IMG/VR virus record: IMGVR_UViG_3300032240_001991 | Coordinates: 262,659 to 326,658 of that record | Reading direction: 5' to 3' (one strand) | DNA from: a virus | DNA length: 64,000 bases | In this document: positions 1,896-51,900 of the stretch, in pieces | Numbering within the stretch: the stretch's first letter is position 1 | Layout of the letters: every line of letters starts with the position of its first letter | Translations under genes and position numbers: made by a program | Notes under the pieces: model-generated | What the model was told of the DNA's origin: nothing | Databases searched by the model: none | What the model saw: the letters and a program-made list of their open reading frames with translations, nothing else

Positions 1896-2564
1896 TCAAC
1901 TTCCACTAGTTAAGCTTTGAATTCTAATCGTATAATCAATTTGTATTAATCTGTTTAATGCTTTCTGTACAGGATGAAAGATAACGTGCGTTAACAATAA
2001 TCCTGTATTCTCGCCTGCAGGATTATAACTCTTAAGTCCTAATTCATCAAAAACAAAGGTTCCGGATGAATCTGTAACATTAGCATCAAATGCTGGTTGT
2101 CCTTGAGGTTCTCCAAAGTCTAGTAAGCAACTTACTAATAGATCTGAGTAGTATGTGCCAGCTACGTGTCTTACTTCCATAAAATTTCTTGAAGGATCAA
2201 GATCGTAAGGATTATTTGCATCAATAACTTTATAATATGTTTGATTATATAGAGATGCATTACTACCTACATTATTGGGTGTAAGGTATGTAATAATTCC
2301 TGTAGGATCAATTCTACTACCACCGTTGCCAAACGCCATTTCAGAGATAAAATTTTGACCTATATTACCAACTCCGCTTGCTAATGCGATAGAAAAATTT
2401 TCATAATGAATGGCGTTTCTTTTATCTACGTATACTTCTTTGGTTGTTGGATCAAATATTTTAATATGTCCCTGAAGGCGAATAGACCCTGTTTCATTAG
2501 GGTCTTTATTATTTTGACGGTTTTGTGTATTTTCAATCATTTTAGTACTCTTGATATTATCCAT
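1896..2564 (-). CDS. Virion-associated protein of unknown fold
   Basis: The protein has 222 residues and is not recognised by name. The N-terminal 30 residues are hydrophilic and Asn/Lys-rich; the rest alternates beta-like segments such as 'FISEMAFGNGGSRIDPTG' and 'HVIFHPVQKALNRLIQIDY'. It sits between the giant virion protein, whose stop it overlaps by 8 bases, and the collar-domain gene, so a baseplate or fibre-attachment role is likely. There is no Shine-Dalgarno sequence before ATG 2564; instead ATAAATA ends 5 bases upstream. An alternative start at the internal Met (residue 9) also lacks a convincing ribosome-binding site. Confidence 0.75.
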   Translation of the reverse strand: MDNIKSTKMIENTQNRQNNKDPNETGSIRLQGHIKIFDPTTKEVYVDKRNAIHYENFSIALASGVGNIGQNFISEMAFGNGGSRIDPTGIITYLTPNNVGSNASLYNQTYYKVIDANNPYDLDPSRNFMEVRHVAGTYYSDLLVSCLLDFGEPQGQPAFDANVTDSSGTFVFDELGLKSYNPAGENTGLLLTHVIFHPVQKALNRLIQIDYTIRIQSLTSGS

Positions 2565-8500: not shown

Positions 8501-11500
8501 TGTATACCGCTTAAGGAAATAATAACTTTTTTAGCATCAACAGTTGTTTTTAATTCTGTTCCAAAATTTAAATTGTTATTTTTTAACGGATTATGAATAG
8601 TTTGTACCAATGAATAAGATGTTGCTGTACTTACATATTCGTAAACATAAACACATCCTGGTCCATAGTTATCGTTAATCAAAAACGGCGACGACGCAAA
8701 CAAATATCCACCATCGTCAGACATAGAAACTGATGTACCAAACTGATCACCTATTGTTCCTGTTGGAGGCGTGATAGTCTGTAATAACGAATATGACGAT
8801 GTACCGGTTGAATACTGGTAAATGTAAACAACCCCTGTTCCGGTAGACATTGCAGGATTTGCAATCGCTAAGATAGTACCGTCAATATTTCCTGCTAACG
8901 AGCAGTTAACTGTCGATGTTCCTAAAGATATTGGAGGCATTGGTACCGTAATTGCAGTTGTTGAATTAACTGTTAACGTATAAGGGAACACTACTCCTAA
9001 TGTAGGAGCAGAAACAACCAATGCCTTCCCACCTGTAGTAAATTGTGTTTTAGCTACAAATATATCACTACCGTATCTAGATGCTGTGCTAGTGTTTAAC
9101 ACAGAGAGTGTTTTCTCTTCTCCTGTTGCTGGAATAATAGTTGAAATTTGTACTCTATCTACTGCAGGTGCACCGGCTACAATAACTTGATATTCAGTGT
9201 CGTATGCTAGTCCTTTTCCAAATTCAGTAGGTATAGTGATAACGTCAATTCCAGAAGCCACCATATTAAGTGTGTAACTAGTAATTGGATAATGGGTTCC
9301 GTTAAGTAACCCTAAAACAAATACTCGACCGTGTCCAGAACTTGAGAAATAATCCGGAGCGGATATTATAAGCTTATCTGCATCCTCTTGAGTTGCAATA
9401 TTGTATCCGTATCGTTGACCCGGATGATTTACACCACTAAGTATTTCTGTTGAAGTAGAATAGTTATGATTCTTCTTATATACTGTCCACGGAGACCAAT
9501 CATATGTTGCATCACCGGTATCAGTCCAGATTAGTTCGTTATCTGCAAAATCAATTTGATCCTGTAGTGCAACTGTATCATCAAAAGATTTAACTCTTAC
9601 ACTAATAAATTTGAACAACAATGCCTGTGTAGTTGCCGGCGAAACAGTGGCTAATGTTGAATTCACAGAAAAAGAAGTTAACGAAGGTATTTCAATAATT
9701 TCATATATTCCGTCAGTTCCGTTATCTAAACCATAAACTGAAACAATGTCTCCTACATTTAATTTATGAAAAATATCTGTATAGAAAGTTAATTTAACAG
9801 CAGGGATATCTATGTCTGACCCAATTACTTTAATCTGTTGTTTTGAGTAACGGTAGACGTCCCAATCTCCATTAGGTTTAAATCCTAACCATACAGTGTT
9901 ACCATCTTGCAAGTTTCCTGCATTTGCAACATCAAACAAGCTTTGTTTGTTGTACGCTGTTGCAGTTATGTCATCTGATCTAACATATCCTGCTGTTGGC
10001 AATAATAGATTATTATTTTTATATGTAGACGATGTGTATGTTAAAAATACATTATTAGAAGAATAATCATAATTTTTAATTGTTACATCATTAGGAGTAA
10101 CGTAAGAGATAACATCATTAGCTGTCTTAGGAGCAACATCAACAAACTTAATAATTTGATTATTTTCTATAAAATCAGATTCTCTAAGTGGTAATTCAAT
10201 TTCGTTATAAGAAATAAAATTGCCGTAAGAGCCTACTCTAAATGCCCATTCTTCGTCAAATTCAATTTGACCATTTAAATTATGTATACTTGCTTTAGAT
10301 AGTTTTGATATTGAATTTGCTGTTCCTTTTTCTCTTATAAATCCTTGATAGAATTTATATTGAGCAATAGGATCTACTATAATGTTTGTAAGATAACCTC
10401 TTGGTGTATAACCGGTTAAATGTTGGGCCATTTTTTGTTGGCCAATGTCAAAGTTATCTATATCTAAACTATAAAAATCTTCAAATTGATTAATTTTATA
10501 ATCAAAATTAGGTAACAACTGCGCAATAGGAGAAGACCCTAATAAATTCCATTTTGTGAAATTAAAATTAGATGTTCCTGTAATATTTTCATTTGCAGAA
10601 TAATATTTTCCAGAATATTTTACAACACTAGAAATATCATAATCTTTATTTGCTTGCCAAGCTTCAATAGTTACATCGTCGTAAACAAATCCAGGACTTA
10701 AGAAATCACCATTCCAGTCTCCTGTAATGAATCCTGAAATTTTCATTCTAGCCTGACGATAACCTGTTTGTGTGTCATAGACTACATCTCCAAACATACT
10801 TGAATTTGCCATAACAATTGCATGTTCTTTCTGTATGAGATTTAATCTAGCAAAATATAAACCTGCAGGAGTATCTTCGGCACTTATTTTACAAATGCCA
10901 TTTTCTCTACTTAAACTAAAGTTTTTTGGAGGAAACGGAGTTCCGTTTGCTGTTAATAAACTATAATCGTAAAAACTATTAAGTACATTATCAACAACAG
11001 CATCTGTAAATTTGTATTGTATTTTTCCTGAAAAAGGACTTAGTGTAATTACTGAGCCGTTAGACCAATTTTGAGTAGTCCAATATAAAAATTCTTTTCC
11101 TGAAAAATTCCAATCTAGTACTTGCTCTAAATCTGAATTATATTCGTTAAAAATAAATCCTTGATTAGTTAGATATTTCCCGTATCCAACAATTAAATCG
11201 TAAACTTCTTGTGTTGTTGAATATTGTGTTCCGTAAGGAATAATCGTTTGATTTTGATCAAAATCTTTAGTGATCGATACCGTTGCTCCGCCTATTGTTG
11301 GTAAGTTTGCTAGTTTGATATAAGCAGTAACATCAAAAGAGGACCCAGAATTGGTACTAGTTGCAACAGAATAATAAGAATTTTCATACTTTACATACTG
11401 ACCTGCTTGATAGAATGTATTTTCTGTCCAGGTTAGTACTGGCGGAGATTTTCCTCCTACTGATATAGATGCGTCGTTATTTCTATGTAAAGGAGCATTT

Positions 11501-14500
11501 ATTGTAAAGAATAGATCTTTTTTATCGTAACCCTTAACTAAAAATTTTCCATTTTTCTTTTCAACAATTATACCAGAAATTGAAACAAACTTAACCGGAT
11601 TACTTACATTAAAATGTAAAGCGTAGTCTTCGTTAGGTAGTAAAACTCCTGGACTTACTGTATTTGGGCTAACTGAATCTATAGTAATCTCTAACTTATC
11701 TTTACTTAAAAATCCACCTGCTTTATAAAACAAATTAAAGTTAACTAATGATAAATCTTGTTTCAGTGCTGCTAGATAATCTAAAGACCTCTTTTTACCA
11801 GATTCAATCACCATCACACTATAACCAGATGAAAGAACAGTATTTCCATTACTGTCTATATCACTATTAAGATAAACAATTGAAGGATTTAAAAATAAAC
11901 TATTTTTACCGTACCTGTATTGTCCATCTACATTTTTAACTAGTCTAATAGGGTCAAACATTTTTGCAGCGTACGATGCTGGCTTAGATAGTGCTAAAAT
12001 TATTTGCACTGCATACGGCCATATACTGCTACGTCTCCATGCAGTTTCAGCAGGACCATGATCTCCAAAAGACCAATCTTGATCTGGATTTAATATATTT
12101 TCATTCTCAGCAATACTACCCCAGAATCGTAAGTCAATCAATTGACCACTATCATCAACTGGAATTATTTTACTTAACCCTGTTCTAACATATGTAGGAT
12201 CTACTCCAGCACGTTCTCCGTAACGAATTAGTCCTGCTTCTAAATCTTCCCATAAGTTTAGGTTTCCAGAAGTATAAGGTGCAGGACCATATTCTGATTC
12301 CCACCAAGATGGTTTAATACTAAATCCTAACATTTCCCAAGGATGTGTATTAGGGCGATCAGTATCAAAGTAAAATTTGTAGATACCTCTCCAATTTCCA
12401 GGAACTACAGAATTAAAAAAGTAATCTTGAGTAGATTTATAGTTATAAGTTTTATGGTTGTCTACGTTATAGTCAACATTTGACGAATAATCTATTCCGT
12501 AACTACTGGTCCATTTAATAAAATCTCCTTGTACAATATTATAAATTTTATTATAGGAGTTTTTATTATCTCGAAATACTCCCGGAAGTATGTCATTGAT
12601 ATTAATTAAATCAGGATCATATGTTACTTTTATATTATTGAACACTCTTCTTTCGTATTCTAAAAGTGCTAGGTCTCTAAAATCGTAATTGCCAATTGCG
12701 GCATTTGCAACTGTTGTATATGCCAGCGTAATACTACCATCGTGGCCTTGTATTACCATGTGGGCATTTACTGCATATGATTCGTCTTTATAAATCATAG
12801 GCACATATTTTGGATACAATCCTAATTTGCTAGGAGTTGGCGGAACGTAGGATCCTACGGTGGTAATATAATCAACCACCGTTATTATGTCACCCCGTGT
12901 TAAAGTTGCCGATATTACAACTACAGGGTCTACCAAATCAAAAGAATAATCAACTCCGTATACTAACAATGAACCGTTTAGGTATATCAATACTGATCTA
13001 GTTGAAAGCTGTGTAATATCAAATGTTGAAATTAAAGGATATCTAACATTTCTAGCATCTGTAACTGTGTACTTTCTAGTAACATTATTAGTACCATATC
13101 CTAGCATATCACTTTGAGAATACGGAAACGTGTAATTTTTATTTTTAATAATAGAACTTAACGCTTGATCTAAAACTCCGCTAGGTGATAAAGACGCATC
13201 AGATTGGGTGATAAATTTTATTAAATTTAACTTAAATTGATAATAATCATTTGCAGTACTACGTGTTGCATTAATTAAATTATGTTCAATGTCAGTTATA
13301 AACAGTTGTGCAAACGACATTGGATTATATGATGTAATCATTCGTGTTCCGTATTTTGTAATAAACGGAAGACTCTTTAGATTACTTACACCAGGGAACA
13401 CACCAACAAAATTTGGGTCTCGATTAACCATTGTTTGAACATGATCACTTAATTCACTAAGAGTAAATTGAGAAATTTGTTCGTTCAGCGGATTGTTAGA
13501 TGAATTTAAAGGAAATTCATATATACCGTTTTCGTTTGGTGACGAAGCGGTATAACATTTAATTAAAACATTTGTTACACTAGTAAACGGTGTAACAAAT
13601 TGAACATTTAAATTTGTTTTATCTATGACCAATGTATAATCTACATCTAACATTAACTTTACATTATTAGAAAATACTTCTATAGTTAGATCTGTAATTA
13701 ATGCGGCATTATCAAAAACAGTGATAGGTATTAAATTTCCAGTTGATACAACTTGAAATTGTTGCACCGGCATCTGATACGGCATTCCTTCTTCCCATAC
13801 GTTCTTATAAGAATATCCAGTATCCTTATTAATTCGTAAGAAAGTCTTAGATGTAGAAACATCGGTTACTGTATTAGTACCTAATAGAGAAATATTACTT
13901 GTATTGAAATAATTTTCAAACAAATAGGATCCTTCAATCCCAACATTTTTATAGTTTAACGGAAACCCTAAAACAGGATCAGCTATACCTGTACCTATTG
14001 AATATCCAAATAACTTATTTCCTAAAAAGATTGCATTGTAATAAGTTTTATCGCTATAACTATGTCCAGTTTCATCAAATAGGTCAAAAAGTGGTGCTTG
14101 GTTTAGTACAGTTCTTTGTTGAGAAAGAACCCATTCTAATCCATTAAACCAAAATTCCTTTCCTTGTCCCTTAGTTCCTAATAATATTACTGTACTATTA
14201 CCAAAAATTGGTTCTATTATCTCGGCTAGATTAATCTTTTCAACACCGTTAATTAAGCTTAACCCTACTTGAAATATTTTTCCACGAACTAGTGGATCAG
14301 GGTCTGCATTAAAAATAATGCGTTGGCCAGGTTCTAATGCAACTCCGTCTACAGTATAACTTGTAGAACCTTCAATACTTGAAAATACATCGCTAGTTAC
14401 TTGGTCAATTAAATCAACTGGATCTAAGCTGTTATTTCCAAAATTGTAGAGTTGTATATCTGCTTCAAATTCAACAATAGGACGTCTTGCTCTTAAATTC

Positions 14501-15747
14501 TGTAAAAGTGTAGGAGTAACACCATTTGCCATTGCTGAAATTTCAATAACATCTTGATGGAACCAACGGTTATATCGAGACCAAGGATTAAGATCTTGGG
14601 ATGATCTATTAATAGTTACATACTCAGGATCAATTGGTAGATTTTTAAAACTGTCAAACGGATACTCGTCAAACGGTTCAACGTCAAAATCGTCATCGTA
14701 TATTGTTGCAAGATTTTCTGGAGTTTGTAATTTAGCAAAATCAACTAATTTAATAGCATTGCCTACGCCCTCTACTATAAATTCTTTATTATTATAATAT
14801 TCAGGTGTTACTTGTCCTGCAAATCTAATTTTTAATCCGTTAATAAACTCAATACCGTTAGGGGTATTAGTAGTTGGTGCAGTTTTATACGTAACTTTTC
14901 CTAATATTTCCTGTTCTACGTCAATTGAAGAATTTTCTTCAATGTCTCTAATTAATATAGTTCCTACAACAACATTTTCATTATTACTTGCGTAATATAA
15001 AATTCCCGGTAATGTTTCCGGAACAGAAAAAATTATCTGTCCTTGCTTAATACCGTTATTAAGTATTCCACTAGACTCAGGTAGTGCATCACTATCGCCT
15101 GGTAGATTTGTTGTCTTAATATAAAAATTATGAGAAGAATTTACATTAAAGACATACGTTACACCTTTATATAAAGTTAATAGCGGGTTTTCAGTTACTC
15201 CGTCAGGTGTAAAAATAAAAAAATTCTTATCTGCTGAATCAGTTACATTATATGTACTAACCGTAGATTTTTGTAACCCAGTTACTGTTATTGTTTCTGG
15301 GCCAGTTGTTAGCCAGTAATACTGACTAAAATTTATAAACTTATCCCAGTCAATGTGAGGATTGTAAGAATTAACTTCTGGAGAAAATAGAGAATTTAAA
15401 TTATCCGTTGACCCGCCTTGTACACTTATTTGATTTACTAGATCATCAAGTCCAAGTGCTTTCTTAATTGCACCTGATACCGTTTTAATTGTTAACGCAG
15501 GCTGAAATTGATATTTGTCTCTGAGAGAATTTTTAGTGCTGTTAGCATCGTTTACGTAAACATCTGTTACTGAATTATAAGTAGGTGTTAACTTGCTACC
15601 AACATATCCGCTAACACGATTAAGCACCGGCACTTTATATAATTGATCAATAGTGCTAGATAAAAATTTAGTATTTTTCTTAGTTTGAAAATATGAAGGT
15701 AATAAATTTACCGACTTTCTTTCATTTTTTGAAACGTTATTAGCCAT
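2557..15747 (-). CDS. Giant modular virion protein (4,396 aa), probable baseplate-attached adhesin
   Basis: This single 13.2-kb frame begins at ATG 15747 with AAGGAA about 9 bases upstream. Residues about 180-265 form a cupredoxin-like segment ('TLYKGVTYVFNV ... VPETLPGILYYASNNE ... GTILI') whose usual metal-type Cys/His positions are absent. Residues about 2095-2500 contain FG-GAP/beta-propeller-like repeats ('RYGYNIATQEDADKLIISAP', 'QFGTSVSMSDDGGYLFASSP', 'GKSIAVNNGNIFIGAPD'). Residues about 2920-3350 contain several GxGYxxxPxV modules. The last 1,000 residues carry repeats of the kind 'VNG..L..G.DY.....V', common in fibre proteins. It lies between gp6 and the collar-domain protein. Such giants are known as virion components in marine T4-like phages. 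The adhesin role is inferred. Confidence 0.8.
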   Translation of the reverse strand: MANNVSKNERKSVNLLPSYFQTKKNTKFLSSTIDQLYKVPVLNRVSGYVGSKLTPTYNSVTDVYVNDANSTKNSLRDKYQFQPALTIKTVSGAIKKALGLDDLVNQISVQGGSTDNLNSLFSPEVNSYNPHIDWDKFINFSQYYWLTTGPETITVTGLQKSTVSTYNVTDSADKNFFIFTPDGVTENPLLTLYKGVTYVFNVNSSHNFYIKTTNLPGDSDALPESSGILNNGIKQGQIIFSVPETLPGILYYASNNENVVVGTILIRDIEENSSIDVEQEILGKVTYKTAPTTNTPNGIEFINGLKIRFAGQVTPEYYNNKEFIVEGVGNAIKLVDFAKLQTPENLATIYDDDFDVEPFDEYPFDSFKNLPIDPEYVTINRSSQDLNPWSRYNRWFHQDVIEISAMANGVTPTLLQNLRARRPIVEFEADIQLYNFGNNSLDPVDLIDQVTSDVFSSIEGSTSYTVDGVALEPGQRIIFNADPDPLVRGKIFQVGLSLINGVEKINLAEIIEPIFGNSTVILLGTKGQGKEFWFNGLEWVLSQQRTVLNQAPLFDLFDETGHSYSDKTYYNAIFLGNKLFGYSIGTGIADPVLGFPLNYKNVGIEGSYLFENYFNTSNISLLGTNTVTDVSTSKTFLRINKDTGYSYKNVWEEGMPYQMPVQQFQVVSTGNLIPITVFDNAALITDLTIEVFSNNVKLMLDVDYTLVIDKTNLNVQFVTPFTSVTNVLIKCYTASSPNENGIYEFPLNSSNNPLNEQISQFTLSELSDHVQTMVNRDPNFVGVFPGVSNLKSLPFITKYGTRMITSYNPMSFAQLFITDIEHNLINATRSTANDYYQFKLNLIKFITQSDASLSPSGVLDQALSSIIKNKNYTFPYSQSDMLGYGTNNVTRKYTVTDARNVRYPLISTFDITQLSTRSVLIYLNGSLLVYGVDYSFDLVDPVVVISATLTRGDIITVVDYITTVGSYVPPTPSKLGLYPKYVPMIYKDESYAVNAHMVIQGHDGSITLAYTTVANAAIGNYDFRDLALLEYERRVFNNIKVTYDPDLININDILPGVFRDNKNSYNKIYNIVQGDFIKWTSSYGIDYSSNVDYNVDNHKTYNYKSTQDYFFNSVVPGNWRGIYKFYFDTDRPNTHPWEMLGFSIKPSWWESEYGPAPYTSGNLNLWEDLEAGLIRYGERAGVDPTYVRTGLSKIIPVDDSGQLIDLRFWGSIAENENILNPDQDWSFGDHGPAETAWRRSSIWPYAVQIILALSKPASYAAKMFDPIRLVKNVDGQYRYGKNSLFLNPSIVYLNSDIDSNGNTVLSSGYSVMVIESGKKRSLDYLAALKQDLSLVNFNLFYKAGGFLSKDKLEITIDSVSPNTVSPGVLLPNEDYALHFNVSNPVKFVSISGIIVEKKNGKFLVKGYDKKDLFFTINAPLHRNNDASISVGGKSPPVLTWTENTFYQAGQYVKYENSYYSVATSTNSGSSFDVTAYIKLANLPTIGGATVSITKDFDQNQTIIPYGTQYSTTQEVYDLIVGYGKYLTNQGFIFNEYNSDLEQVLDWNFSGKEFLYWTTQNWSNGSVITLSPFSGKIQYKFTDAVVDNVLNSFYDYSLLTANGTPFPPKNFSLSRENGICKISAEDTPAGLYFARLNLIQKEHAIVMANSSMFGDVVYDTQTGYRQARMKISGFITGDWNGDFLSPGFVYDDVTIEAWQANKDYDISSVVKYSGKYYSANENITGTSNFNFTKWNLLGSSPIAQLLPNFDYKINQFEDFYSLDIDNFDIGQQKMAQHLTGYTPRGYLTNIIVDPIAQYKFYQGFIREKGTANSISKLSKASIHNLNGQIEFDEEWAFRVGSYGNFISYNEIELPLRESDFIENNQIIKFVDVAPKTANDVISYVTPNDVTIKNYDYSSNNVFLTYTSSTYKNNNLLLPTAGYVRSDDITATAYNKQSLFDVANAGNLQDGNTVWLGFKPNGDWDVYRYSKQQIKVIGSDIDIPAVKLTFYTDIFHKLNVGDIVSVYGLDNGTDGIYEIIEIPSLTSFSVNSTLATVSPATTQALLFKFISVRVKSFDDTVALQDQIDFADNELIWTDTGDATYDWSPWTVYKKNHNYSTSTEILSGVNHPGQRYGYNIATQEDADKLIISAPDYFSSSGHGRVFVLGLLNGTHYPITSYTLNMVASGIDVITIPTEFGKGLAYDTEYQVIVAGAPAVDRVQISTIIPATGEEKTLSVLNTSTASRYGSDIFVAKTQFTTGGKALVVSAPTLGVVFPYTLTVNSTTAITVPMPPISLGTSTVNCSLAGNIDGTILAIANPAMSTGTGVVYIYQYSTGTSSYSLLQTITPPTGTIGDQFGTSVSMSDDGGYLFASSPFLINDNYGPGCVYVYEYVSTATSYSLVQTIHNPLKNNNLNFGTELKTTVDAKKVIISLSGIQENSLTFNDGTVFDGLSTRFTDYINNSGTVYTYERKNKYFVYATELFDANSLTILNGELYGGNNYGKSIAVNNGNIFIGAPDTLGIISNNFVTLGAVFQYNVIDASQTCWSIFRQQEDLIDLTKIKRSVTVNTESEQLVDYLDIIDPVKGKISGLADQEIRYKTAFDPATYSVGTQGVVVNTKTSWIEDRVGELWWDLSTVKYVWYEQSDLEYRKNSWGTLFPGASIDVYEWVQTEYLPSQWSALADTTDGLSKGISGQPKYPDNSVMSIKQYYNPSTGQATNVYFYWVKNKVLLPNAKGRKIPASTVASLIFDPASYGSKFVSILAPNAIAVANVKNTLVGNQIYLNISKDTLNNSVTRHTEWLLLGEGNSANMPTEMLDKKLLDSLVGRDSLGNLVPDPSLSNRVKYGIEVRPRQGMFVDRNQALRNVIDYVNGVVAGYLITDQVNFKNLNSKREIPDVYSREYDQIVDSYGDLSSIKTADLVQAKLTCSISSTTGTITTINIVNSGTGYAPLLPVTYTGSTATSWAGPLVTVVNDTSDAEIDLVINQYGRVTAATIKNSGKGYLKAPELKVRPYTVIVKTDENSNNRWAKYEWQGKSWVKVFTQDFDTTQYWDYINWVSQDFDSLKPLAETVEETYQLAEITVNNGDYVKVKNQGNGRYIILQKVSSAGDYTDKYNLMVNENGTIKFKDNLWNITNNWYNFDYHFTYDQTLYDQTPEMELINILKAIKEDIFIGSLKVYWNHLFFKAVRYAMSEQKFVDWAFKTAFINVRNLAGTLDQRPVFKFQNSQYYEQYIEEVKPYHTKIRNYQVNYNLLEPSNSYITDFDSPAYYDRDTDQFLTVNPGDELSGVYPWKSWTDNYKLSVGSIIVEKPGAGYTSVPTVEIIPALGDTGSGATAEARISLGKVTGVVVTNGGSGYLQTPSVIIVGGGSTELVTAKAYPVMINGKVRNNTVEMKFDRISSNQQINTSTVTESFICDGETFRFTLGWAAENKKANINITLGGVRVLATDYNIETYRKTSSGFGYSYKKLFSDLVLTSAPAQGKVIQITYNKNINLYSAVDRIYSYYQPSINMPGVDPAQLMTGVEYPAAQKQGLMFDYSTNWGLTPFGQSLYGDDVYYYTTASVISVAVTGTDTLMLDNLAGIYPGLRINTVSTSTPYNKFVDPIVTVVSVNTASQLVTFSTSTISTVGLGTLIEFWEFNMVPGVLDTILDGGDLAYTLASGLNPEDIIVDGEGFISPNISHAPEEMIKGEIHESLGMSVYARDPQTGAPVVSETFGEITQTTQTTVLRLLTVPPTTASAIVSFNNELLVPGVDYEFDLVNSTIVIGTQTTTGLVGVSVIGVGGYDYVSSGYTALSNTSTISVSVGVNAEYNTIYATLNGQELLPSQYTLGQGLLTVTGVNPAITNVLQSWVFFGTNRPYSAVREQSIFNNDPARVEWDLFYPLNDNWSADSQAIVEVDSRILIPPNTSYHLFTGVDLKFSIDPNNSYPPNSFGLSSLDVYVNGLRMIPLTDYVVNSVENKVKFRVGLLQLNDVIAITNHEFSDYYFNESRNTIVVRPSADFTYTKIMRIITINNITVEDGIKKEPLIELETFQGRGSRRYEVSRPIFNNNYVWVTVNRKPLVKGIDFYVDADRVTIVLRDSYPYNPSDIVTIMSMYDTSVGNTIGYRMFRDMLNRTEFLRLSKDSSTVLAEPLYPTDKIITVADAGKLALPNLALKIPGVIFIGGERIEYRSVNENVLGNLTRATLGTGAKSVYAIGTSVIDQGARQNLYLSHTPFREITTVTSIMTATGATSYTISALSLNTTTGFVTATNQITVLYGGTPLRKTGFYQHDITVSYDTPAYTLNRSTVATQYDLPPTTVIGTAYLVTSTNEIWSYTASKSESSTATNGYSFTGVRWVEPQFTLTNVVTVGQWSTATLVLNLPTLSTSTGVRIEIVQRIASTNFYELNNTPLIDDTGKIAQFLRDKQATLPDKYYYG
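2570..2576 (-). promoter_or_regulatory. Late-promoter-like ATAAATA element abutting a start codon
   Basis: The minus strand reads GATAAATATTACTATGG: ATAAATA, 5 bases, then the ATG of the 222-residue gene. It lies inside the last codons of the giant gene, so chance is possible, but the same arrangement recurs at gp25 and three other genes. With T4-like geometry the transcript would start at or next to the ATG. Confidence 0.4.
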
Positions 15748-26096: not shown

Positions 26097-26121
26097 ACTA
26101 TGATAGGAGATGTTTATAAGA

Positions 26122-27027
26122 ATGACAACAGTAACAACATCAGGAAAAAAAGTAAAATACTTAAACAATAGAGATTTATTAGCAGAGATACATAAAAGCA
26201 AATGTAGTTTTTCTAGTTTTACCAAACCAGAATATAACCAATACGATGTTATTTTAACTGACCTAGATAAAATAAACATTAGAACTATTGCAGATGCCAA
26301 AAGAAATCGTGCTAAAAGAATTGGATTAGAAACATTTAATGCCGCAAGAGCAGCAGGCGATAAAAAAATTAAACTAATAGAGTGTACTCCAGACTACACT
26401 GAAATTAAAAAAGGTGACATTGTCATTAGGATAATGACCTTTGATCATATTCCGCTTGCACCGGGCAGAAAAAAGACTACTAAAACTCGAGCAGATTCCC
26501 ACGAAAAAATTAATTTTCCTCCGTTCCAACATTGGAAGTTTAACGAAGCTGGAGAACTAGAATGCGTAGGCAAAAGTCACTGGAAAGGTGGTTTAGAAAA
26601 AGGCAAGTTTAGCAAAGATCACGGACGGATTACTGAAGAACTTGGCAAGATGTTTATTAAATTAAGTGAACGCTACGCACAGCGCAGTAACTGGCGCGGC
26701 TATACATATGTTGACGAAATGCGGGGGCAGGCTATATTACAGTTAAGTCAAATCGGATTGCAATTTGACGAGTCAAAATCAGAAAACCCGTTTGCTTATT
26801 ATACTGCCGCAGTAACTAATTCTTTTACTAGAATTTTAAACTTAGAAAAGAAAAGCCAAAACATTCGTGACGATCTACTTGAAGTGCACGGACTAACGCC
26901 TAGCCTAACTCGTCAATCTAAGGACGAATTTGCAGACGAAGTTGCCAAGCAAGCAGAAATCTATAAAAATACTAGATTACCAAAGAGTCAAGATACTGAC
27001 TTTTTTGAAGAAGAAAGCGACGAATAA
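26122..27027 (+). CDS. gp55: Late-transcription sigma factor gp55-like
   Basis: The protein has 301 residues from ATG 26122, with AGGAGA 11 bases upstream; the ATG at 26110 abuts that site and is unlikely. In T4, gp55 replaces sigma70 on host RNA polymerase to recognise TATAAATA late promoters with the gp45 clamp. The N-terminal 'KVKYLNNRDLLAEI' resembles the start of T4 gp55. The core 'SNWRGYTYVDEMRGQAILQL' and 'ESKSENPFAYYTAAVTNSF' is the gp55 region-2-like helix set. The acidic end 'TDFFEEESDE' parallels the clamp-binding tail of T4 gp55 (DFLYE...). An insertion of about 100 residues between the start and the core makes it far longer than the 185 residues of T4. It begins the plus-strand early operon. 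Confidence 0.9.
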   Translation: MTTVTTSGKKVKYLNNRDLLAEIHKSKCSFSSFTKPEYNQYDVILTDLDKINIRTIADAKRNRAKRIGLETFNAARAAGDKKIKLIECTPDYTEIKKGDIVIRIMTFDHIPLAPGRKKTTKTRADSHEKINFPPFQHWKFNEAGELECVGKSHWKGGLEKGKFSKDHGRITEELGKMFIKLSERYAQRSNWRGYTYVDEMRGQAILQLSQIGLQFDESKSENPFAYYTAAVTNSFTRILNLEKKSQNIRDDLLEVHGLTPSLTRQSKDEFADEVAKQAEIYKNTRLPKSQDTDFFEEESDE

Positions 27028-29883: not shown

Positions 29884-30134
29884 TAAACAAGTACAAAGAG
29901 CTACATGAACAATTACTAGACTTATTAGTAGAGTATCATAATGCTCATGTTAGATTTTTAGATAGACAGAATAGTTATAATTGCAGCCACTTGATTCCTA
30001 TAACAAAAAAAATAGGAAGACTTGTTAAAGAAATGAGAAAACATAATTTTGAGCTACGGCAAAGTTTATTAGCAGAAAAACGTAGTAGAATATCAAAACA
30101 AAAGGAAAAAAAGAAAAATGTCAAACACACTTGA
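29880..30134 (+). CDS. Small basic coiled-coil protein, unknown function
   Basis: The protein has 84 residues and is strongly basic and helical, with the last 20 residues almost all Lys/Arg/Ser/Gln. Its ATG overlaps the gp46 stop (ATGA), and its tail overlaps the next gene by 17 bases, so it is translated as part of the recombination operon. No recognised domain. The basic tail suggests nucleic-acid contact (inference). A/G-rich codons near the end also form the ribosome-binding site of the next gene. Confidence 0.65.
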   Translation: MINKYKELHEQLLDLLVEYHNAHVRFLDRQNSYNCSHLIPITKKIGRLVKEMRKHNFELRQSLLAEKRSRISKQKEKKKNVKHT

Positions 30135-30315
30135 AAATTTAAAACAGGCACTTGAATCAGCTCTAGCAGAAGATGCTAAGTTTTCTGGCGGCAATAATGC
30201 AGCAGGAACACGAGCTCGTAAAGCGTTGGCAGAAGTTGGTAAATTAGTTAAGGCACGCCGTAATGAAATTACCGCAGAAAAGAACGCTCGAAAGGATGCT
30301 AAGGCAACAAAGTAA
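30118..30315 (+). CDS. Small histone H1/Hc1-like basic protein
   Basis: The protein has 65 residues. The C-terminal half 'RARKALAEVGKLVKARR' followed by 'NARKDAKATK' resembles the short Hc1-like or nucleoid-associated proteins found in T4-like phages and bacteria, which pair an Ala/Lys helix with a basic tail. AAGGA about 12 bases upstream of ATG is a good ribosome-binding site. Its place directly after gp46 suggests a DNA-associated role in replication or packaging, but the function is unproven. Confidence 0.7.
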   Translation: MSNTLENLKQALESALAEDAKFSGGNNAAGTRARKALAEVGKLVKARRNEITAEKNARKDAKATK

Positions 30316-30742
30316 GTTGACCTGGCTGTATCAAGGCAAAGAAGTTACAGAACTTCCTGAGGATTGTGTTGGATTTATCTATTTGATTACTAATACAATC
30401 TCAGGAAGGATGTATGTTGGAAAAAAATTAGCAAAATTCTCAAAAACAAAATACAAAACAGTAAAACTTAAAAACGGCAACAAGAAAAGAAAGAAAATTA
30501 AAAGCAAAATAGAATCAGACTGGCAAACTTATTATGGCTCCTCAGACGAATTAAACGAAGACATTAAACAACTAGGCAACGAACATTTTAAACGCGAAAT
30601 ACTATACTACTGCACAAGTAAGGCACAAACTTCATATCTTGAAGCAAAAGAACAATTTGACAGGCGTGTTTTAGAAACAAATCAATACTATAACGGACAT
30701 ATACGTGTTCGTGTCCATGGCTCACACATAATCAAAAAATAA
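30296..30742 (+). CDS. GIY-YIG-like endonuclease
   Basis: The protein has 148 residues from ATG 30296; ATG 30263 is an alternative with AAGG 9 bases upstream but would translate the previous gene's tail out of frame. 'VGFIYLITNTISGRMYVGKK' gives the variant GIY (FIY) and YIG (YVG) strands. 'DWQTYYGSSDELNEDI' and 'HFKREILYYC' follow, and the Glu in 'SYLEAKEQF' is a candidate catalytic acid. A basic 'KNGNKKRKKIKSK' loop lies between the strands. Such proteins include free-standing phage homing nucleases and restriction-like enzymes. It is the last gene before the structured non-coding region. Confidence 0.7.
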   Translation: MLRQQSKLTWLYQGKEVTELPEDCVGFIYLITNTISGRMYVGKKLAKFSKTKYKTVKLKNGNKKRKKIKSKIESDWQTYYGSSDELNEDIKQLGNEHFKREILYYCTSKAQTSYLEAKEQFDRRVLETNQYYNGHIRVRVHGSHIIKK

Positions 30743-30769
30743 CATCAAGGCACATTAAACAGCACTAAA

Positions 30770-31176
30770 GGTTGACGGGCCAGTTATAATACCGTTGTGG
30801 AAAAAGCGGGGAGTAACCGCACACGTAACACGTTGAGCCGCTTTGCTGCATGCAAAGATAGGATTGGCGTAGGATGAATGCTGTCATTCGTAAAACACTG
30901 CTCTAAAACACCTTGGGGATCAGGAACGAGCCCAGGGCATTATACATATATAATGTGTCGCAGTAGGTAAGGAAAAGTGCAGAGTCCTTAGAGCTACAGT
31001 GTATAAACACCTACTTCCACGTCTTGGCTAGTGAAACTCACATGAAAACCGTCCAAGAATAGACAGGAACCAGTAAAAAGGTTCCGTCTGACCAGCTCAA
31101 TCTACATGAATATCTTAAAAAGAAAACTGCTTCGAGCTGATAAGCGAAGAAGCAGGTGAGCGTTAGCTCACCTTTC
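30770..31176 (+). ncRNA. Candidate large structured non-coding RNA
   Basis: No reading frame of useful length covers this stretch, and its G+C (about 44% by hand count over 30801-31180) looks higher than that of its neighbours. It is nearly filled by consecutive stems: CTTTGC/GCAAAG (30841-30857), GAATG/CATTC (30876-30889), CCTTGGG/CCCAGGG (30911-30937), CATTATA/TATAATG (30938-30955), GTAGG/CCTAC (30963-31014) enclosing TAAGGA/TCCTTA and GTGT/ACAC, CTTGG/CCAAG (31023-31057) enclosing GTGA/TCAC, GGAACC/GGTTCC (31066-31085), CTGCTTC/GAAGCAG (31127-31155) and a terminator-like GGTGAGC/GCTCACC (31155-31172). It lies between the early operon and the first late gene. No known RNA class was recognised. 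The 5' end is uncertain, and it may be processed from the upstream operon. Confidence 0.65.
31155..31176 (+). terminator. Terminator-like stem-loop closing the non-coding region
   Basis: A perfect 7-bp stem GGTGAGC/GCTCACC with a GTTA loop is followed by TTTC. The T-run is short, so termination may be partial. A late promoter begins 3 bases later. Confidence 0.6.
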
Positions 31177-31178
31177 AG

Positions 31179-31186
31179 TATAAATA
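31179..31186 (+). promoter_or_regulatory. Perfect T4-type late promoter TATAAATA
   Basis: The full 8-base consensus TATAAATA stands 26 bases upstream of the ATG at 31213, directly after the terminator-like hairpin. A TTAGGA ribosome-binding sequence follows at 31197-31202. This is the strongest late-promoter match in the window. Confidence 0.8.
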
Positions 31187-31212: not shown

Positions 31213-32073
31213 ATGCGTATTACCCAATTGCTTAATGAAGAAGAATTAGATGAAATAGGAATGAAAAGTATTGGCTCAGCTGCTGCTAAATTAGGCAGAG
31301 GTGCAGCCCTTGGAGTTGGAGCAGTAGCAGGTGGACTAAGAGGCATGGCTACCGCAGCTAAACAAGGGTATGATGTTGGCAAAGCTGCAACTGGACAAGG
31401 ACGATTACCAGCAGCAGGAACAACATGGGGATTTGGGAATCAATACGTAGGACCAGCAGGCGCACAGGCACCAAGCGGAGGTGGAGCTGCACAGCCAGCA
31501 GGTGGCCAAGCACCTAATTTACAAGATCAAATTAAAGATAAACAAAAGCAGAGAGACGCAATTGATCAAGAAATTCAACAGTTAAGATCTCAAATGTCTG
31601 CTGCTCCGCAAGGACCTTCGGGCACTACAGGTACCACTGGACCATCAAGTACTACAAATGCGCCAACCGGACCATCAAGTACTCCTAATGCACCAAATAC
31701 ACCGCCAGCACCTAATGCGCCAAATACACCGCCAGCACCTAATGCACCAAATGCTCCAAAACCACCAAAGACTCCAAAACCTAAAGCACCGCCAGCACCT
31801 AATGCGCCAAATACACCGCCAGCACCTAATGCACCAAATGCTCCAAAACCACCAAAGACTCCAAAACCTAAAGCACCGCCAGCACCTAATGCGCCAAATA
31901 CACCACCGGCACCAAAACCACCAAAGACTCCAAAGACTCCGCAGCCTAATCTCAATGTACAGCCTGGCGGAAAGAATGCGCCACTGGCACCAAATGCGCC
32001 AAAGACTCCGGGAACCTCTACAGCTGAGAGCTTTGATCGTTTATTAGATTTGGTTAAGAAATTACAACGTTAA
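31213..32073 (+). CDS. Pro/Asn/Ala-rich repeat protein, possible internal head protein
   Basis: The protein has 286 residues. The N-terminal 'MRITQLLNEEELDEIG' resembles a capsid-targeting peptide with (L/I)xE cleavage sites. Residues 17-60 are Ala/Gly-rich and helical, and a short charged coiled coil ('DKQKQRDAIDQEIQQLRSQM') follows. Residues about 135-250 are low-complexity 'PPAPNAPNTPPAPNAPNAPK' units encoded by an 87-bp tandem repeat. The end 'AESFDRLLDLVKKLQR' is an amphipathic helix. It has a perfect late promoter, so it is expressed with the virion genes. Its stop overlaps the convergent frameshift product by 4 bases. Not recognised by name; the head role is inferred. Confidence 0.7.
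   Translation: MRITQLLNEEELDEIGMKSIGSAAAKLGRGAALGVGAVAGGLRGMATAAKQGYDVGKAATGQGRLPAAGTTWGFGNQYVGPAGAQAPSGGGAAQPAGGQAPNLQDQIKDKQKQRDAIDQEIQQLRSQMSAAPQGPSGTTGTTGPSSTTNAPTGPSSTPNAPNTPPAPNAPNTPPAPNAPNAPKPPKTPKPKAPPAPNAPNTPPAPNAPNAPKPPKTPKPKAPPAPNAPNTPPAPKPPKTPKTPQPNLNVQPGGKNAPLAPNAPKTPGTSTAESFDRLLDLVKKLQR
31702..31916 (+). repeat. 87-bp tandem repeat inside the Pro/Asn-rich gene
   Basis: Copies start at 31702, 31789 and 31876 (exactly 87 bases apart), giving two full units and a partial third. Each full unit encodes 29 residues beginning PPAPNAPNTPPAPNAPNAPK. The first two units are near-identical at base level, suggesting recent duplication or slippage. Confidence 0.9.
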
Positions 32074-42361: not shown

Positions 42362-43048
42362 ATGGGACGTCCAATTAAGAAGAAATATTTTGGATTTGGA
42401 AATCCAGACGGTGTAGGTGGAGAAGCGTTTGCATCTCTCGTTGTAACTAACACCGCAACAAACGCAGGATACAGTACAACTACAGCAGTTACATGGGTTG
42501 CATCAAGCCCGCAGTTAGTAGGAGGCACTCCTGCTGCTGGTACCGCTGCTGTTTCTTTTGTTACTGGTCAAGGCCGTATACAATCCTTAGGCATCACTAC
42601 TGCGGGTACAGGTTATACCAGCACCGCTAGTGTAACACTAACTTTTACACCTGCTCGAGTAGGCGGCACTGCTGCAACATTTGTACTAAACTTATCATCT
42701 GCTGTAACAAATACTATAGCTGCAAATGCATGGGTTCCAGTATCAGGAACTCAGTCATTAATAGCAGAGATTTTAAAGCAGAAAGCTTCACATCGTTATC
42801 GTGTAGCAACTTCAGAAGGTACTGGAGTTTGCCAACTAGTTGCTAGAGCGCCGGCAGCTGGCGGCGAAATGACGATTATTGCAACTGATAGTGCAAGTAA
42901 TCAATACTATGTTACTAAATTAACTGCACGCAAGGCTGTAGTTTATCAGAAGTCAGGTTCAGGATATCAGTTTACAAACGGTACTGAAGTAGGCTGGAAC
43001 TTAACCGCAGCACAAGCTAACGTCTCAGTTCTAGTAGCATCTAACTAA
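42362..43048 (+). CDS. Probable head decoration / virion structural protein
   Basis: The protein has 228 residues. The N-terminus 'MGRPIKKKYFGFGNPDGVGG' is typical of small abundant structural proteins of marine T4-like phages. The middle contains a GxGYxxxxxV module ('QSLGITTAGTGYTSTASVTL') of the kind repeated in the giant protein. The C-terminal half 'KQKASHRYRVATSEGTGVCQ' with 'YQFTNGTEVGWNL' is a compact beta domain. A dedicated late promoter, a good ribosome-binding site and a strong terminator make a single-gene unit, suggesting high expression. The decoration role is inferred from position after gp23. Confidence 0.65.
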   Translation: MGRPIKKKYFGFGNPDGVGGEAFASLVVTNTATNAGYSTTTAVTWVASSPQLVGGTPAAGTAAVSFVTGQGRIQSLGITTAGTGYTSTASVTLTFTPARVGGTAATFVLNLSSAVTNTIAANAWVPVSGTQSLIAEILKQKASHRYRVATSEGTGVCQLVARAPAAGGEMTIIATDSASNQYYVTKLTARKAVVYQKSGSGYQFTNGTEVGWNLTAAQANVSVLVASN

Positions 43049-45853: not shown

Positions 45854-45934
45854 TACTGAAGAAATTCAGTAGGAACATACTGTGGTAAACCCGCAATGTA
45901 AGGTGGTTGCCCGTGTAACACGGTGTATGAGGAG
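45854..45934 (+). promoter_or_regulatory. Structured 5' leader of the 2,513-residue protein
   Basis: TACTGAA-GAAA-TTCAGTA (45854-45871) is a 7-bp hairpin with a GNRA loop. CCGTG-TAA-CACGG (45911-45923) is a second hairpin, directly before the GAGGAG ribosome-binding site (45929-45934). The leader is far longer than those of neighbouring genes and holds no open frame of note. A regulatory or mRNA-stabilising role is inferred. Confidence 0.5.
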
Positions 45935-45939
45935 TGTCA

Positions 45940-48900
45940 ATGGCCATCGGTCGAATCTCAGGTCCGCTATTAGCTAAAAATCTTTTAAGAGATGGCATAG
46001 ACCTTGCATTTGAAACAGATTTATTATACTTAGATGTAGCCAATGGGCGCATCGGTGTAAGAAAAAATAATCCTTCGTACGAACTTGATGTTAACGGTAC
46101 TATCAATGCTAAAAATTTAAGAGTAGTATATACCGGACCAGGCAGCGGGAAAGCAACGCTTGGCAAGTTAGAAATTACATCAGGCACTATTACTACTACA
46201 GTTGGCCCAATAAACATTCAACCAAGTGGTAATGAAACGATCAATCTTGTTGGCGACACAACTGTTACCGGAAATCTTCACGCTACTGGAAATATAACAG
46301 CTGATGGTAATATTACTTTAGGAAATAATACCGCAACTGACGTTGTTATATTTGAATCTGAAATTGGATCCTCTTTAATACCGGCAGCAGATCAACAATA
46401 TTCGTTAGGTAGTCAAGAACGTGCATGGCTTGATGCCTATGTGTCAACATTAGTTGCAAATCAACTTTCAAGCACCAGCACATTAAACATTAACTCTGGT
46501 GCCAATCTTGTACAGATTAATTCAGACCTTAAGGTAAATGGACAAAATCCCTTAGGCACCGCTCCAGTTATCACTAATGTCTTGTTTGTTACAATGGACG
46601 GTAATGACACTAATGATGGACGAGCAGCTGACGCAAGTCGTGCCTGTAAAACAATTTCAGGAGCAATACGTAGTCCTTATTATCGACCAGGTACTTTAAT
46701 TAAAGTATATAGCGGACATTATTTAGAGAATAATCCGTTATTATTACAACCAAATACAGCAGTTGTAGGAGACGATCTAAGAACAACATCTATTGAACCA
46801 ATTAATAAGACACAGGACTTATTCCATGTTCAAAGCGGTTGCTATATTGCGCAAGTGCAATTTTATAATGGACGCAGCGGATTATTACCCGGACCATATG
46901 TTAACGGTACTAATAGAGGTGCATATTGCACAGCATTTCCTCCACAAGTAGGAGGAAATAAGATTGACGTTTATCAATCACCTTACATACAGAACTGTAC
47001 TAATCAAAGCGGTCCGTGGTTAGTTGACGGAACAATGTTTGTACCTAACCAAACGGTACAAATTCCTCAAGCAGTTGGTACAACAGTATTTGACTCTAAC
47101 ACAACTACCATTGTTGTTACAATAACAACAGGCACAGTTGTTCCGGGGTTACATGTTATTAGCGGACCCCAAGACGTAGGATTTACTAATGCGAGAACAT
47201 TATTATTGTCAAATCTTGCATTTATACAAGACCAAACTGTTGCTTGGGTAAATCATCAGGTAAAAACTAGTAGCACAGTTTACATACCTCAGCTAGCTAC
47301 CACAACAAATTTTACAAATTTTACATACGATCAAGCTAAATGTTATCGCGATGTAGGATTAATTTTACAAAATGTAGCCTACGACGCAACTTTTGGCGGA
47401 AACGAAAAAGCCGTTGAAGCTGGGTTAGCTTATTGGAACGGCGTTATTAACTTAATTGAAGGGCAGCAAGGACAAACTACTGCGGCAATTAATTACATCA
47501 ATACATTAAGTCAAGCAATTATCACAAATACTACTGTAACAAATCTATACAGTTCATCAACTGCACAGATTATTAATACAGCGTTAGTGAACGGTGTTAT
47601 TGCTAGCGAAGAAATTACTAGCGCAATTGGCACTATAATTACAATTATCAATGACGGACCTATTGCCGCACCGCCTATCTTTATAAGCTGCGGACCTGAA
47701 ACGCCGTTAGTTAGCGCAGAACTATTATTACAACAAAATCGTAAATTCTTGCAAGGCGAAGTTACTGCCTATGTAGATGCAACCTATCCAACATTTGAAT
47801 ACAAGAAAGATTATTGCTATCGTGATGTTGGATTGATTGTTGATGCAGTAGCTCAAGACATTATTGTAGGCGGCAACACAAAATCTATTGAAGCAGCATT
47901 AAGTTATTATACAGGCGGTAAAGGTGATAGCAGCGTAGCTGAAACAGCAATAGTCAACAACTTTAATTTAATTAAAAATATTATACAAAATGGTCCATCA
48001 GTAGCTCCAGATCCTGTAAGCGGTCCTAATTTAGGGACAGGATTTTCTAACGCACAGGATATATTACTTGCTAATATCTTCTTTGTGCAAACAGAAGTTA
48101 GCGCATATGTAAGAAGCTTATTTGACAACACATTTAGATTAACACAATTACAACAAAATTTATGCTACAGAGACATTGGCACTATACTTACTGCAATTGC
48201 TGAAGATACAGCAGCTGGCGGTAATGTTAATACTGTTTACGCAGGATTACAATATTTTAATGGTTCTGTAAGTGTGCTACCAGGCAATCAAACAGAAAAA
48301 ACAATTCTCACTTTAAACTATATGCAACAGCTCTGTGTTAATATTATTAAAAATATTCAAAACACAGGGCTGTATCAAGTTTTAATTCCGCAGGTATTTG
48401 GAGATTATACCGGTACTGATCAAGCTAACGCAGTTAACGCTAATATTGAATTGATCACTGACATTATAACATTGGGACCAACCGTTGTTACATCGTTGTA
48501 CCCAATCTCTCAATCGATGACAACTGATGTTAGAAACATAAATGCATTTAATTTATTAACAGCAAACAAATCTTTTCTTGCTGCAGAATTAACCGGTTGG
48601 GTTGACACTACTTTTTCAAAAGGTTTTAATTATAATACAGCAACTTGCTATAGAGATACTGGGTTAATTGTTGACAGTTTAGCTTGGGACTTGTTACAAC
48701 AAGACACTAGTCAATCAATCTTCTCAGGACTTCAATACTATAATAAATCAGGATACACTGGTTCAATTAATAAAGAATTGACAACAACTACCGCAGCTAT
48801 TAACTATGCTAAAGAATTAGCAATGAAGGTAGTTGTCAACAGTACAGTAACTAATTTACAAACAGCAACTCTACAGGTATTTAATTTAGTTAATCCTGGA

Positions 48901-51900
48901 TCGCCGGTAACAACTGGTACTGTTGGAACACTGTTCAATACTGTTACTAACATATTAGTAAATGGCACTGCTGGAGTTACTAATCAAATCATACCTAACA
49001 ATACAGCATCTGTTGTAACCGGTATTGTTAATGCTTACAATTTATTACAGGCTAATAAATCCTTTATAGAAGACGAAGTTATTGCTTATGTAGACTTGAC
49101 TACTGGCGGATTTAGTTATGATCAACCTAAGTGTTATAGAGATGTTGGGTTAATTGTTGATAGTTTAGCAGAAGACTTGTTATTCAACGGAAGTAGTCAG
49201 AGTAATTTTTCTGGATTACAATATTGGGCACAAGGATCTACAAGTATCCCAGGAGAACTTAATACAACAACTGCGGCAATTAGTTACGTAAGAGACCTTG
49301 CAGTAAAAGTTGTTGTTGGTGATACAAGTGGCACAAGATATCAAAACTCAGTTCTTCAAATCACTAGCAGTACTGTTGCTACAGTAGCAGAACAACAGAA
49401 GGTCTATGACGAATTTAATCTAATACTTGATATTATACTTAATGGCACTAGTGGAGTTACTGACAAAATTATACCAAACGGAGTCACAATTAGTAGTGAT
49501 CCAAGCATACAGGCGGCATATTTCTTATTAGAAGCTAATAAATCATATCTGCAGGCAGAAGCAATCGCTTATGTTACTGCTATTAAGACACAGGGATTCT
49601 TCTATGACGTTAATAAATGTTATAGAGATGTTGGATACATGGTTGACAGTGTATCATTTGATATGTTATATGGCGGTAATCGACAAGCAATACAATCTGG
49701 TGTATATTACTACGGATTTGACAGTGCTACGACTAATGTTCCAAATGAACAGACACAGGTTGTTGCAGCATACGAATACATTAAAACGCTTTCAAGTTAT
49801 ATAATTAAAGGGCAAAGACTTCCGTCTCAGTATCAATATTCTGTAATACAAGTAATACCTACATTAGTTGGTAGTAATGCAGACGTTGCTGCGGTAAATT
49901 CTAACGTTGATTTAATAGTTAACATTATTAATACCGGAACTAGCGCAGCATTAGCACCAACTCCAATTAGTTTAACATCTACATCAACTCAGGCAACTAT
50001 TAACGCGGTTAATGCTCTTGTAGTAAATCGACAATTTATACAGGCTGAAGTAGTTGCTTATATTAATAGTACCTTTTCACCAGGGTTTATCTATGATAGA
50101 ACCAAGTGTCGCAGAGATGTTGGGTACATTATTGACGGTGTCAGCTTTGACTTATTGCATGGCGGAAATCGACAAAGTGTACAGAGCGGAGTATATTATT
50201 ACGGATTTGATTCAAATTCTAGTGTAATTACCTATGAATTGGCTCAAATTACCGCCGCTTATAACCGAATTAAGGAGATTTCTAGTAAGATTATTAAAGG
50301 ACTGCCTGTTACTCCTACTTTAGGTAATAACGTTACACAAGTTACAGGAAGTAGTTCAGCTACAGATACCGAAGTTGCATATATCGCTAGTGAAATTAAT
50401 ATTATCAATGATATTATTAATAATGGCCCTAGCACCGGTTACCCAAAGACACCGATTAAGTTAACTTCAACAAGCACACAAGCAGTTATTGATGCACATA
50501 CATACTTACTAGCTAACCGTACATTTATTCAAACTGAGCTAATTGCTTATATAAATTACTGGTTTGCACAGGCAGGAACAACTTCTACAACTTCAACATT
50601 TGTTTACGACAAAATTAAATGTCAGCGAGATACAGAATTAATTGTAGACAGTGTAGCATTAGATTTACTATACGAAGGTAATACACAAAGTACCTTTGCT
50701 GGATTGCAATACTGGTCGCAAGGAACAACCAATATTCCAAGCGAACAAACTACAACAACTAATGCCATTGCCTACGCGCAGTCTCTAGTAGATACTCTAA
50801 TTTCTCCGTACACTACTTCCACCAGTGTTGACGAGAATTTTAATTTAATCATTAACATAATTAATTCTGGAACATCTTTAGTAACTGATTTAATTGTTCC
50901 AAACAGCTTACCTTCAACTAATACTGGAACAGTGGCTGCATATAATATAATACAGTCAAATAAAGCATCAATACAACAACAAACAGTAGACTGGGTCAAT
51001 ACAAATAATCCAGGGTTTGTTTATAGCACATCAACATGTTATAGAGACGTTGGATATATTTTAGACTGTGTCAGCTTTGACTTGCTACATGGCGGAAATC
51101 GACAAAGTATTCAAGCAGGTACGTACTATTACGGATATAGCACTACACAGACAAATATTGTAAACGAAATACCTCAGGTAATAGGGGCATACAATCAATT
51201 AAAATATTTGATTAACGAAGTTCTTGCAAATCGTGCGTTAACTAAAACATATCAAGTAGTATATCCTCAGGTATTAATTCCTGCTTATATGGGAACTGCT
51301 AGCGTTATCAAGGGAGAAGAAGTAATTACAGCTGATGCAATTACCTATCTCAACAGTATTAGTCTAAATGTAATTAGTAATACTCCGGTTCCTGTAAGAC
51401 GAGGTCCTGTAGCACAAACATTTAATACATCGTTAGACGGCGGACAGCATGCCGGCACTGCGGTGACAAGAAATTATACTATCATCTCAGACGTAATTAA
51501 GAAAGGCCCTAATGCAGCTCCAGTACCGTTCACTGGTTCAGGATTATTTGCAACTACAGGTGTAAGTAGCGATGACGTTCGCCGTAGTCCTACTATTTTA
51601 TCAATTGTTACACAAACAGGAAATACTTACACATTAGAATTATCTGAGCCAACTGTAGGAGATAGTCAAGGCGGTACATTATACTTTGGTAATACATTAG
51701 TATTTCCTGCAACAGACGAACAAGTTGAAGAAGCAAGTCTAAAGTATACCGGCAATGCAACTACATGGAACACACGTAAAGTAGATCCTATTGGTGCTAT
51801 GGGAGGAAGCTTAGTTGACGGAAGCGTCGTTAGCGATCGAAGCCCAATTCAATCCTTCGTTTACGATGCGTTTACCCAAGTATCGCAAGGTGGCAGAGGT

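Follow-up and report, generated by a model that had tools for sequence, protein, structure and literature searches.

GOLLD is a phage RNA of lakes and sea in which the 3' region is conserved and the 5' region less so (PMC12286853). The RNA described here resembles it as a large phage RNA with a conserved 3' part and a variable 5' part, but it is about half as long, does not lie near tRNAs and has no Rfam sequence match to it. With ROOL it has in common that it is large, pseudoknotted, phage-encoded and of unknown function, but ROOL is 659 nt long and found near tRNA islands, and again there is no Rfam match here. The likeness to GOLLD and ROOL, which the initial annotation of this DNA had suggested from its letters, holds at the level of architecture and does not extend to any relation in sequence. 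A further described RNA, Polynucleobacter-1 (RF01718), is listed as 'probably RNA' and 'probably cis-regulatory', with Burkholderiales and fresh water or estuary as its sources (Weinberg et al. 2010, PMC2864571).

The window analysed here, a stretch of 64,000 nt, forms the end of a 326,658-base (326.7-kb) viral record with T4-like gene content, including portal gp20, a baseplate protein, the head maturation protease, the major head protein and gp55. That this record carries a member of a conserved, extensively folded RNA family is secure, and a literature search found no paper describing it. Elsewhere in the window, an Rfam freshwater-2 RNA (RF02980; 42290-42364, +; 58.7 bits, E 2e-6) adjoins the start of the ORF at 42362-43048 in the head gene region, and two very large frames span 2557-15747 (-; 4396 aa) and 45934-53481 (+; 2515 aa).

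Fold and covariation of the RNA

The initial annotation had proposed a non-coding, hairpin-dense region of about 400 nt at 30770-31176. The RNA is real, but its conserved part starts earlier, at about 30757-30765: the 58-sequence alignment described below (A2), similarity to four other loci (L017, L012, L051 and L055) and the absence of an ORF place the whole RNA at 30757..31174 on the + strand (about 415 nt, ends approximate), with a conserved core at 30765-31113 (+). From the GIY-YIG stop at 30742 to the start codon that follows at 31213, no + strand frame reaches 50 aa. The longest frames within the conserved core are 30 aa on the + strand and 40 aa on the - strand in the window, with medians of 28 aa (+) and 57 aa (-) among relatives; the proposed lack of an open frame is thus borne out, the check for a hidden conserved frame being negative in the window and in relatives. 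The G+C content of the stretch is, as had been noticed, above that of its neighbours (0.447 vs 0.332 in the 2 kb upstream and 0.408 in the 2 kb downstream; 0.376 for the window). Folding of the single sequence is better than that of shuffled sequences (z -2.6), with 1 of 100 shuffles equally good.

Alignment A2 is sequence-based and contains 58 distinct full cores, taken from the contigs of a 3'-motif scan and from earlier GIY-YIG loci. Because helices were located by mutual-information analysis and then counted on the same alignment, the weight of the following figures rests on the shuffled and slid controls rather than on the raw percentage, the slid control being one in which helix partners are displaced by 1-3 columns. 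Across the 58 sequences, 63 pairs in 12 helices, one of them a pseudoknot, are paired in 95.3% of cases compared with 83.8 after shuffling. Double compensatory changes affect 38 pairs and 380 cells, as against 99.1 cells in the shuffled and 34-80 in the slid control. The search for covariation in homologues, which had been named as the check on a structured RNA, is therefore positive, and this comparative evidence is decisive for a non-coding structured stretch of about 400 nt. Conserved G-U pairs (UG in 52 of 58 and GU in 50 of 58 sequences) identify the + strand as the RNA strand. A nested structure predicted by RNAalifold on a MAFFT alignment was partly wrong, and helices were read from covariation instead.

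All helices are given on the + strand. The 5' domain begins with P1 (30774-30778 with 30792-30796), which has double-sided changes in 4 of 5 pairs and is 96.6% paired, followed by P2a (30797-99/30822-24), which is helix 2 of the covariation count, and P2b (30806-09/30817-20), in which all 4 pairs covary. P3 (30830-36/30864-70 and 30838-39/30861-62; 96.2% paired, double changes at 5 pairs) closes a variable module that in the window consists of a short hairpin only (30841-46/30852-57) and in most relatives of a longer insert with a covarying stem of its own (helix 5). P4 (30872-76/30885-89) covaries in 4 of 5 pairs and P5 (30912-18/30931-37) in 6 of 7, the loop of the latter, AGGAACGA, being nearly invariant. 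In the variable hairpin P6 (30938..30955) all 4 counted pairs covary, with 76.8% paired in a part of the alignment that is weak.

The compact core is formed by P7 (helix 9; 30960-62/30978-80), which pairs in all 58 sequences and at one position shows as many as five pair types, P8 (helix 10; 30963-67/31010-14 plus 30968/31007), supported by the covariation count, and P9 (helix 11; 30971-73/30985-87), again paired in 58 of 58. Since P7 crosses both P8 and P9, this core is a pseudoknot, and it comes with nearly invariant unpaired stretches (AGGAACGA, CAGAG.CC and GUGGAAAA). A long-range helix with a 3-nt bulge (30896-30906 with 30988-31001) was read directly in the window and in L055, where the pairings are CACUG+CUCUAA with UUAGAG+CAGUG and ACCGU+GCUA with UAGC+ACGGU; one of its column pairs, 30905/30990, covaries, and it stands outside the counted structure because the alignment is out of register there. 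Further downstream, the 3' module contains the hairpin P12 (31062-64 and 31066-71 with 31080-88; 98.8% paired). Of the at least nine adjacent stems described initially, several turn out to be parts of longer-range helices and of the pseudoknot. Three sequences (L085, L091 and L102) keep the core and the 3' module with a different 5' domain, and further variants of this kind were found.

Relatives and genomic setting

An Rfam search of the region gave no match (best E 0.82, and chance-level matches only at E 10), and ARAGORN found neither tRNA nor tmRNA in the 64-kb window, in agreement with the initial statement that the region does not match tmRNA, RNase P RNA, tRNA or group I or II introns. 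With nothing known matching under covariance models, no coding frame and covariation in homologues, the suggestion of an undescribed structured phage RNA is supported.

Relatives, all of them metagenomic contigs, were collected in several ways. A GIY-YIG protein search of viral contigs yielded 80 loci, about 60 of them distinct; some 47 of the distinct loci have a non-coding stretch of about 450 nt at the same place, and similarity to most of the window RNA is limited to L017, L012, L051/L056 and L055. A scan of viral contigs for the 3' motif returned 87 contigs, and scans for the 5' domain and for the central core at least 120 contigs each. Presumably marine samples, judged from their identifiers, are among the matches of the latter two scans. 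In all, the RNA is found again in hundreds of viral contigs from lakes and the ocean. Among the GTDB genomes of 84,980 bacterial and archaeal species, none matched the 3' motif, and none of the 50,697 phage records searched by BLASTN with the window RNA, its sister RNA (see below) and two marine variants gave a relevant match. In Melnitz and C48C1 only short gaps follow the GIY-YIG gene. The carrier lineage is common in lakes and sea, with no annotated phage record found to contain the window RNA.

The RNA occupies a constant position within a conserved gene order of gp55, sbcD/gp47, sbcC/gp46, sometimes Hc1, GIY-YIG, RNA and then structural genes. In the window this neighbourhood starts with the late sigma factor gp55 (26110..27027, +; PHROG 12791, E 4e-88, and synteny) and leads to a SegE-type GIY-YIG gene directly upstream of the RNA (30263..30742, +, conserved part from about 30317), whose identity, first proposed as a GIY-YIG-like nuclease, is upheld by Pfam (PF19835, SegE_GIY-YIG, E 2e-33). 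Of the 58 relatives, 57 have the RNA 3' of the GIY-YIG gene; the remaining contig is cut short. The gap between the two is below 60 nt in 33 of 56 loci and at least 200 nt in 21 of 56, and the RNA is intact despite inserts of 200-900 nt after the gene. A window scan found no sigma-70-like promoter upstream of the RNA. A histone H1-like Hc1 gene at 30118-30315 overlaps the start of the GIY-YIG frame and is present in only some relatives. PHROGs and many phage records name the GIY-YIG family (30317-30742 in the window) 'NAD synthetase', which seems to be a misannotation.

At its 3' end the RNA is closed by two terminator-like hairpins followed by TTT (31127-33/31149-55 and 31155-61/31166-72; whole element 31127..31175, +), which are kept in both RNA families discussed below; those of the window are 92% identical to the hairpins of L002-L007, which carry the other family. 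The hairpins are clear, as had been described, but with three T only the terminator is weaker than was claimed, and a terminator consensus scan did not call the closing hairpin. Directly behind, at 31179-31186 (+), lies a perfect match to TATAAATA, which we take to be the T4-type late promoter box and which would serve the downstream genes. It is the sole copy in the 64-kb window against 10.8 expected (the whole record has 22), and it is conserved behind the RNA in relatives: TATAAATA occurs within 200 nt 3' of the window-type RNA in 27 of 54 loci (expected 0.009) and of the sister-type RNA in 47 of 99 (expected 0.005), both expectations being derived from the remainder of the same loci. The promoter noted initially between the RNA and the late genes is thus a recurrent feature, and the idea of an early-to-late boundary fits a locus in which gp55, gp47 and gp46 precede the RNA and a late-type promoter and structural genes follow it. 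The gene that follows the RNA in the window (31213-32073) has no counterpart at the other loci, where the next shared gene begins about 300 to 3800 nt from the RNA. This gene encodes a repeat-rich protein (PNAPNTPPAP-like repeats) without a family match.

The 3' module and the sister family

The 3' module has a characteristic layout in which ACTC plus a 7-nt word is followed by a hairpin and then by AATCT with a second copy of the word. In the window, repeat 1 (ACTC + ACATGAA) occupies 31036..31046 (+; word 31040-46) and repeat 2 (AATCT + ACATGAA) 31099..31110 (+; word 31104-10), and the two change in concert among relatives. Both words are identical in 157 of 168 distinct window-type sequences compared with 96.5 after shuffling (maximum 109), several of the remaining cases being parsing failures. 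Joint variation affects 5 of 7 word positions and gives words such as GCATGAA, ACATAAT, ACATGAT, ACGTGAA and GCATAAT. In the sister family the words are identical in 89 of 93 sequences (shuffled 24.0, maximum 39), and for each repeat position tested the strongest correlation is with the matching position of the other repeat, its lead being large at the two positions that vary most. In some sequences part of repeat 2 was prescribed by the scan patterns, repeat 1 never was, and the central-motif scan prescribed neither.

The words are direct, non-palindromic repeats and do not pair with each other. No third column pairing with both repeats was found in the sister-family alignment, complements of the word are not enriched in several-kb flanks or inside the RNA, and the window contains no convincing complement site. 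A helix joining the bases before the repeats in two-fold symmetry, suggested by one column pair, was dropped after the longest helices scored 229 compared with 243.5 in shuffled sequences. The simplest reading of these word comparisons is that one trans-acting partner, differing between phages, is recognised twice; alternatively, the repeats may vary together through a tertiary contact that they share, either between themselves or to an invariant element.

The phages closest to the window by GIY-YIG protein (L002-L008, 82-85% identity) have Polynucleobacter-1 at the same locus, as shown for L004 and L008, with L002-L007 near-identical. Matches to RF01718 in T4-like phage contigs were seen in L004 (6444-6580), L008, L021, L029, L035, L045 and L074. 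The match spans about 137 nt (the Rfam model has 141 nt), and strong covariation continues over the next 250 nt, indicating that the complete RNA has about 430 nt, of which RF01718 represents the 5' third. Where contigs have enough upstream sequence, this sister RNA stands 3' of the GIY-YIG gene in 104 of 105. The 141-nt RF01718 model, applied above 37 bits, matched neither the window, the whole record nor 25 contigs with the window-type RNA.

The Polynucleobacter-1-containing phage RNA resembles the window RNA in its 3' module (hairpin, UGAC and the ACTC/AATCT double repeat), its closing hairpins, its locus 3' of the GIY-YIG gene and its freshwater occurrence, but differs from it in the sequence and structure of the core and the 5' domain. 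Searched with a model (R1) built for the 3' module of the window type, 27 sister-family loci yielded 7 matches at E<=1. Five of these stand at the expected place (L076, L020, L039, L041 and L029; E 0.015-0.39), one at the 3' end of a third-family RNA and one elsewhere; as the individual E-values are weak, the evidence lies in the placement of the matches. By this comparison the two RNAs share a 3' module and differ elsewhere, for which domain exchange and divergence beyond recognition are both possible explanations.

Two further RNA types with other 5' domains occur at the same locus. The first (L009, L040, L041, L076 and L080) keeps the double-repeat 3' module, and in the second (L035, L044, L062 and L070) it is mostly absent. 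In the A-type alignment, columns 520 and 718 show an unexplained same-letter correlation (A/A, G/G, T/T) between distant positions.

Possible roles of the RNA

Sponges of the CsrB/RsmZ type are single RNAs in which short recognition words, GGA loops, are repeated and grip a protein dimer. We tentatively favour, with slightly less than even confidence, a comparable reading here, namely a modular, trans-acting RNA that is the last element of an early/middle operon and has a 3' module in which two equal sites bind one partner. The proposed RNA would share with CsrB/RsmZ the repetition of short recognition words within one molecule, but it has two words, these are not GGA loops, and the word varies between phages. 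The RNA of about 415 nt would probably be transcribed from the + strand together with gp55, gp47, gp46 and the GIY-YIG gene, and the closing hairpins and the TATAAATA promoter would set it apart from the late genes. Its architecture would combine an exchangeable 5' domain, the pseudoknotted core and a 3' module that, with its two direct 7-nt repeats, could grip the partner in trans. The putative partner is most simply a phage RNA-binding protein, present as a dimer or in two copies, and less likely a target RNA; the RNA itself may be a scaffold or sponge acting around the early-to-late switch.

The main alternative, which we consider unlikely, is a large cis-acting 3' UTR structure that would keep the gp55-gp47-gp46 message stable and prevent read-through into the late genes. 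Such a UTR is consistent with an RNA that always stands at the end of the same operon and was never seen elsewhere, that in 33 of 56 loci comes right after the GIY-YIG stop, and that ends in two conserved closing hairpins with the late promoter directly behind. It would, however, require neither a core with a pseudoknot nor nearly invariant loops nor a pair of concerted words, and the RNA stays unbroken where 200-900 nt separate it from the GIY-YIG gene. These inserts, at least 200 nt long in 21 of 56 loci, together with the unshared next gene argue against a simple cis element of either neighbour. A role as leader or riboswitch of the downstream gene is highly improbable despite a same-strand gene following the RNA in the window and the published 'probably cis-regulatory' annotation of the related RF01718 (PMC2864571), given that terminator-like hairpins and a late promoter intervene, the window's next gene is absent from other loci and the next shared gene is about 300 to 3800 nt away.

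The size of the RNA, its pseudoknot and its conserved 3' and variable 5' parts recall GOLLD (PMC12286853), and its position just before the head and tail genes would suit an ornate or packaging RNA that forms a homo-oligomer or is contained in the virion. We regard this as improbable, as the RNA does not reach the length of ROOL (659 nt) or GOLLD (over 800 nt), the window has no tRNA and the region no Rfam match to either, and the repeats are unlike the palindromic loops that pair between equal chains. Least probable of all is a ribozyme or processing RNA of a kind not yet described, whether self-cleaving or like RNase P: the compact pseudoknotted core and its nearly invariant unpaired stretches (AGGAACGA, CAGAG.CC and GUGGAAAA) are compatible with catalysis, but no Rfam ribozyme or intron family matches even at E 10, and no split gene or exon boundary was seen.

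Returning to the trans-acting RNA with two equal binding sites, we posit, a shade more guardedly still, that it belongs to a new class of regulatory RNA in phages, the defining trait of which would be a 3' module carrying two identical words rather than one fold; the words would co-evolve with the trans partner, and the core and 5' domains would be swapped between phages. The concerted repeats offer a directly testable lead toward the binder of the word. For Polynucleobacter-1, the Rfam entry is a fragment of a larger RNA and its cis-regulatory label is probably wrong. Few big structured RNAs are known from phages, and a large, well-supported family now joins them; its location behind the gp55 operon prompts the question whether the switch to late transcription is under RNA control. 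If the proposed reading is true, a large group of uncultured T4-like phages would possess a modular, two-grip RNA at the early-to-late switch.
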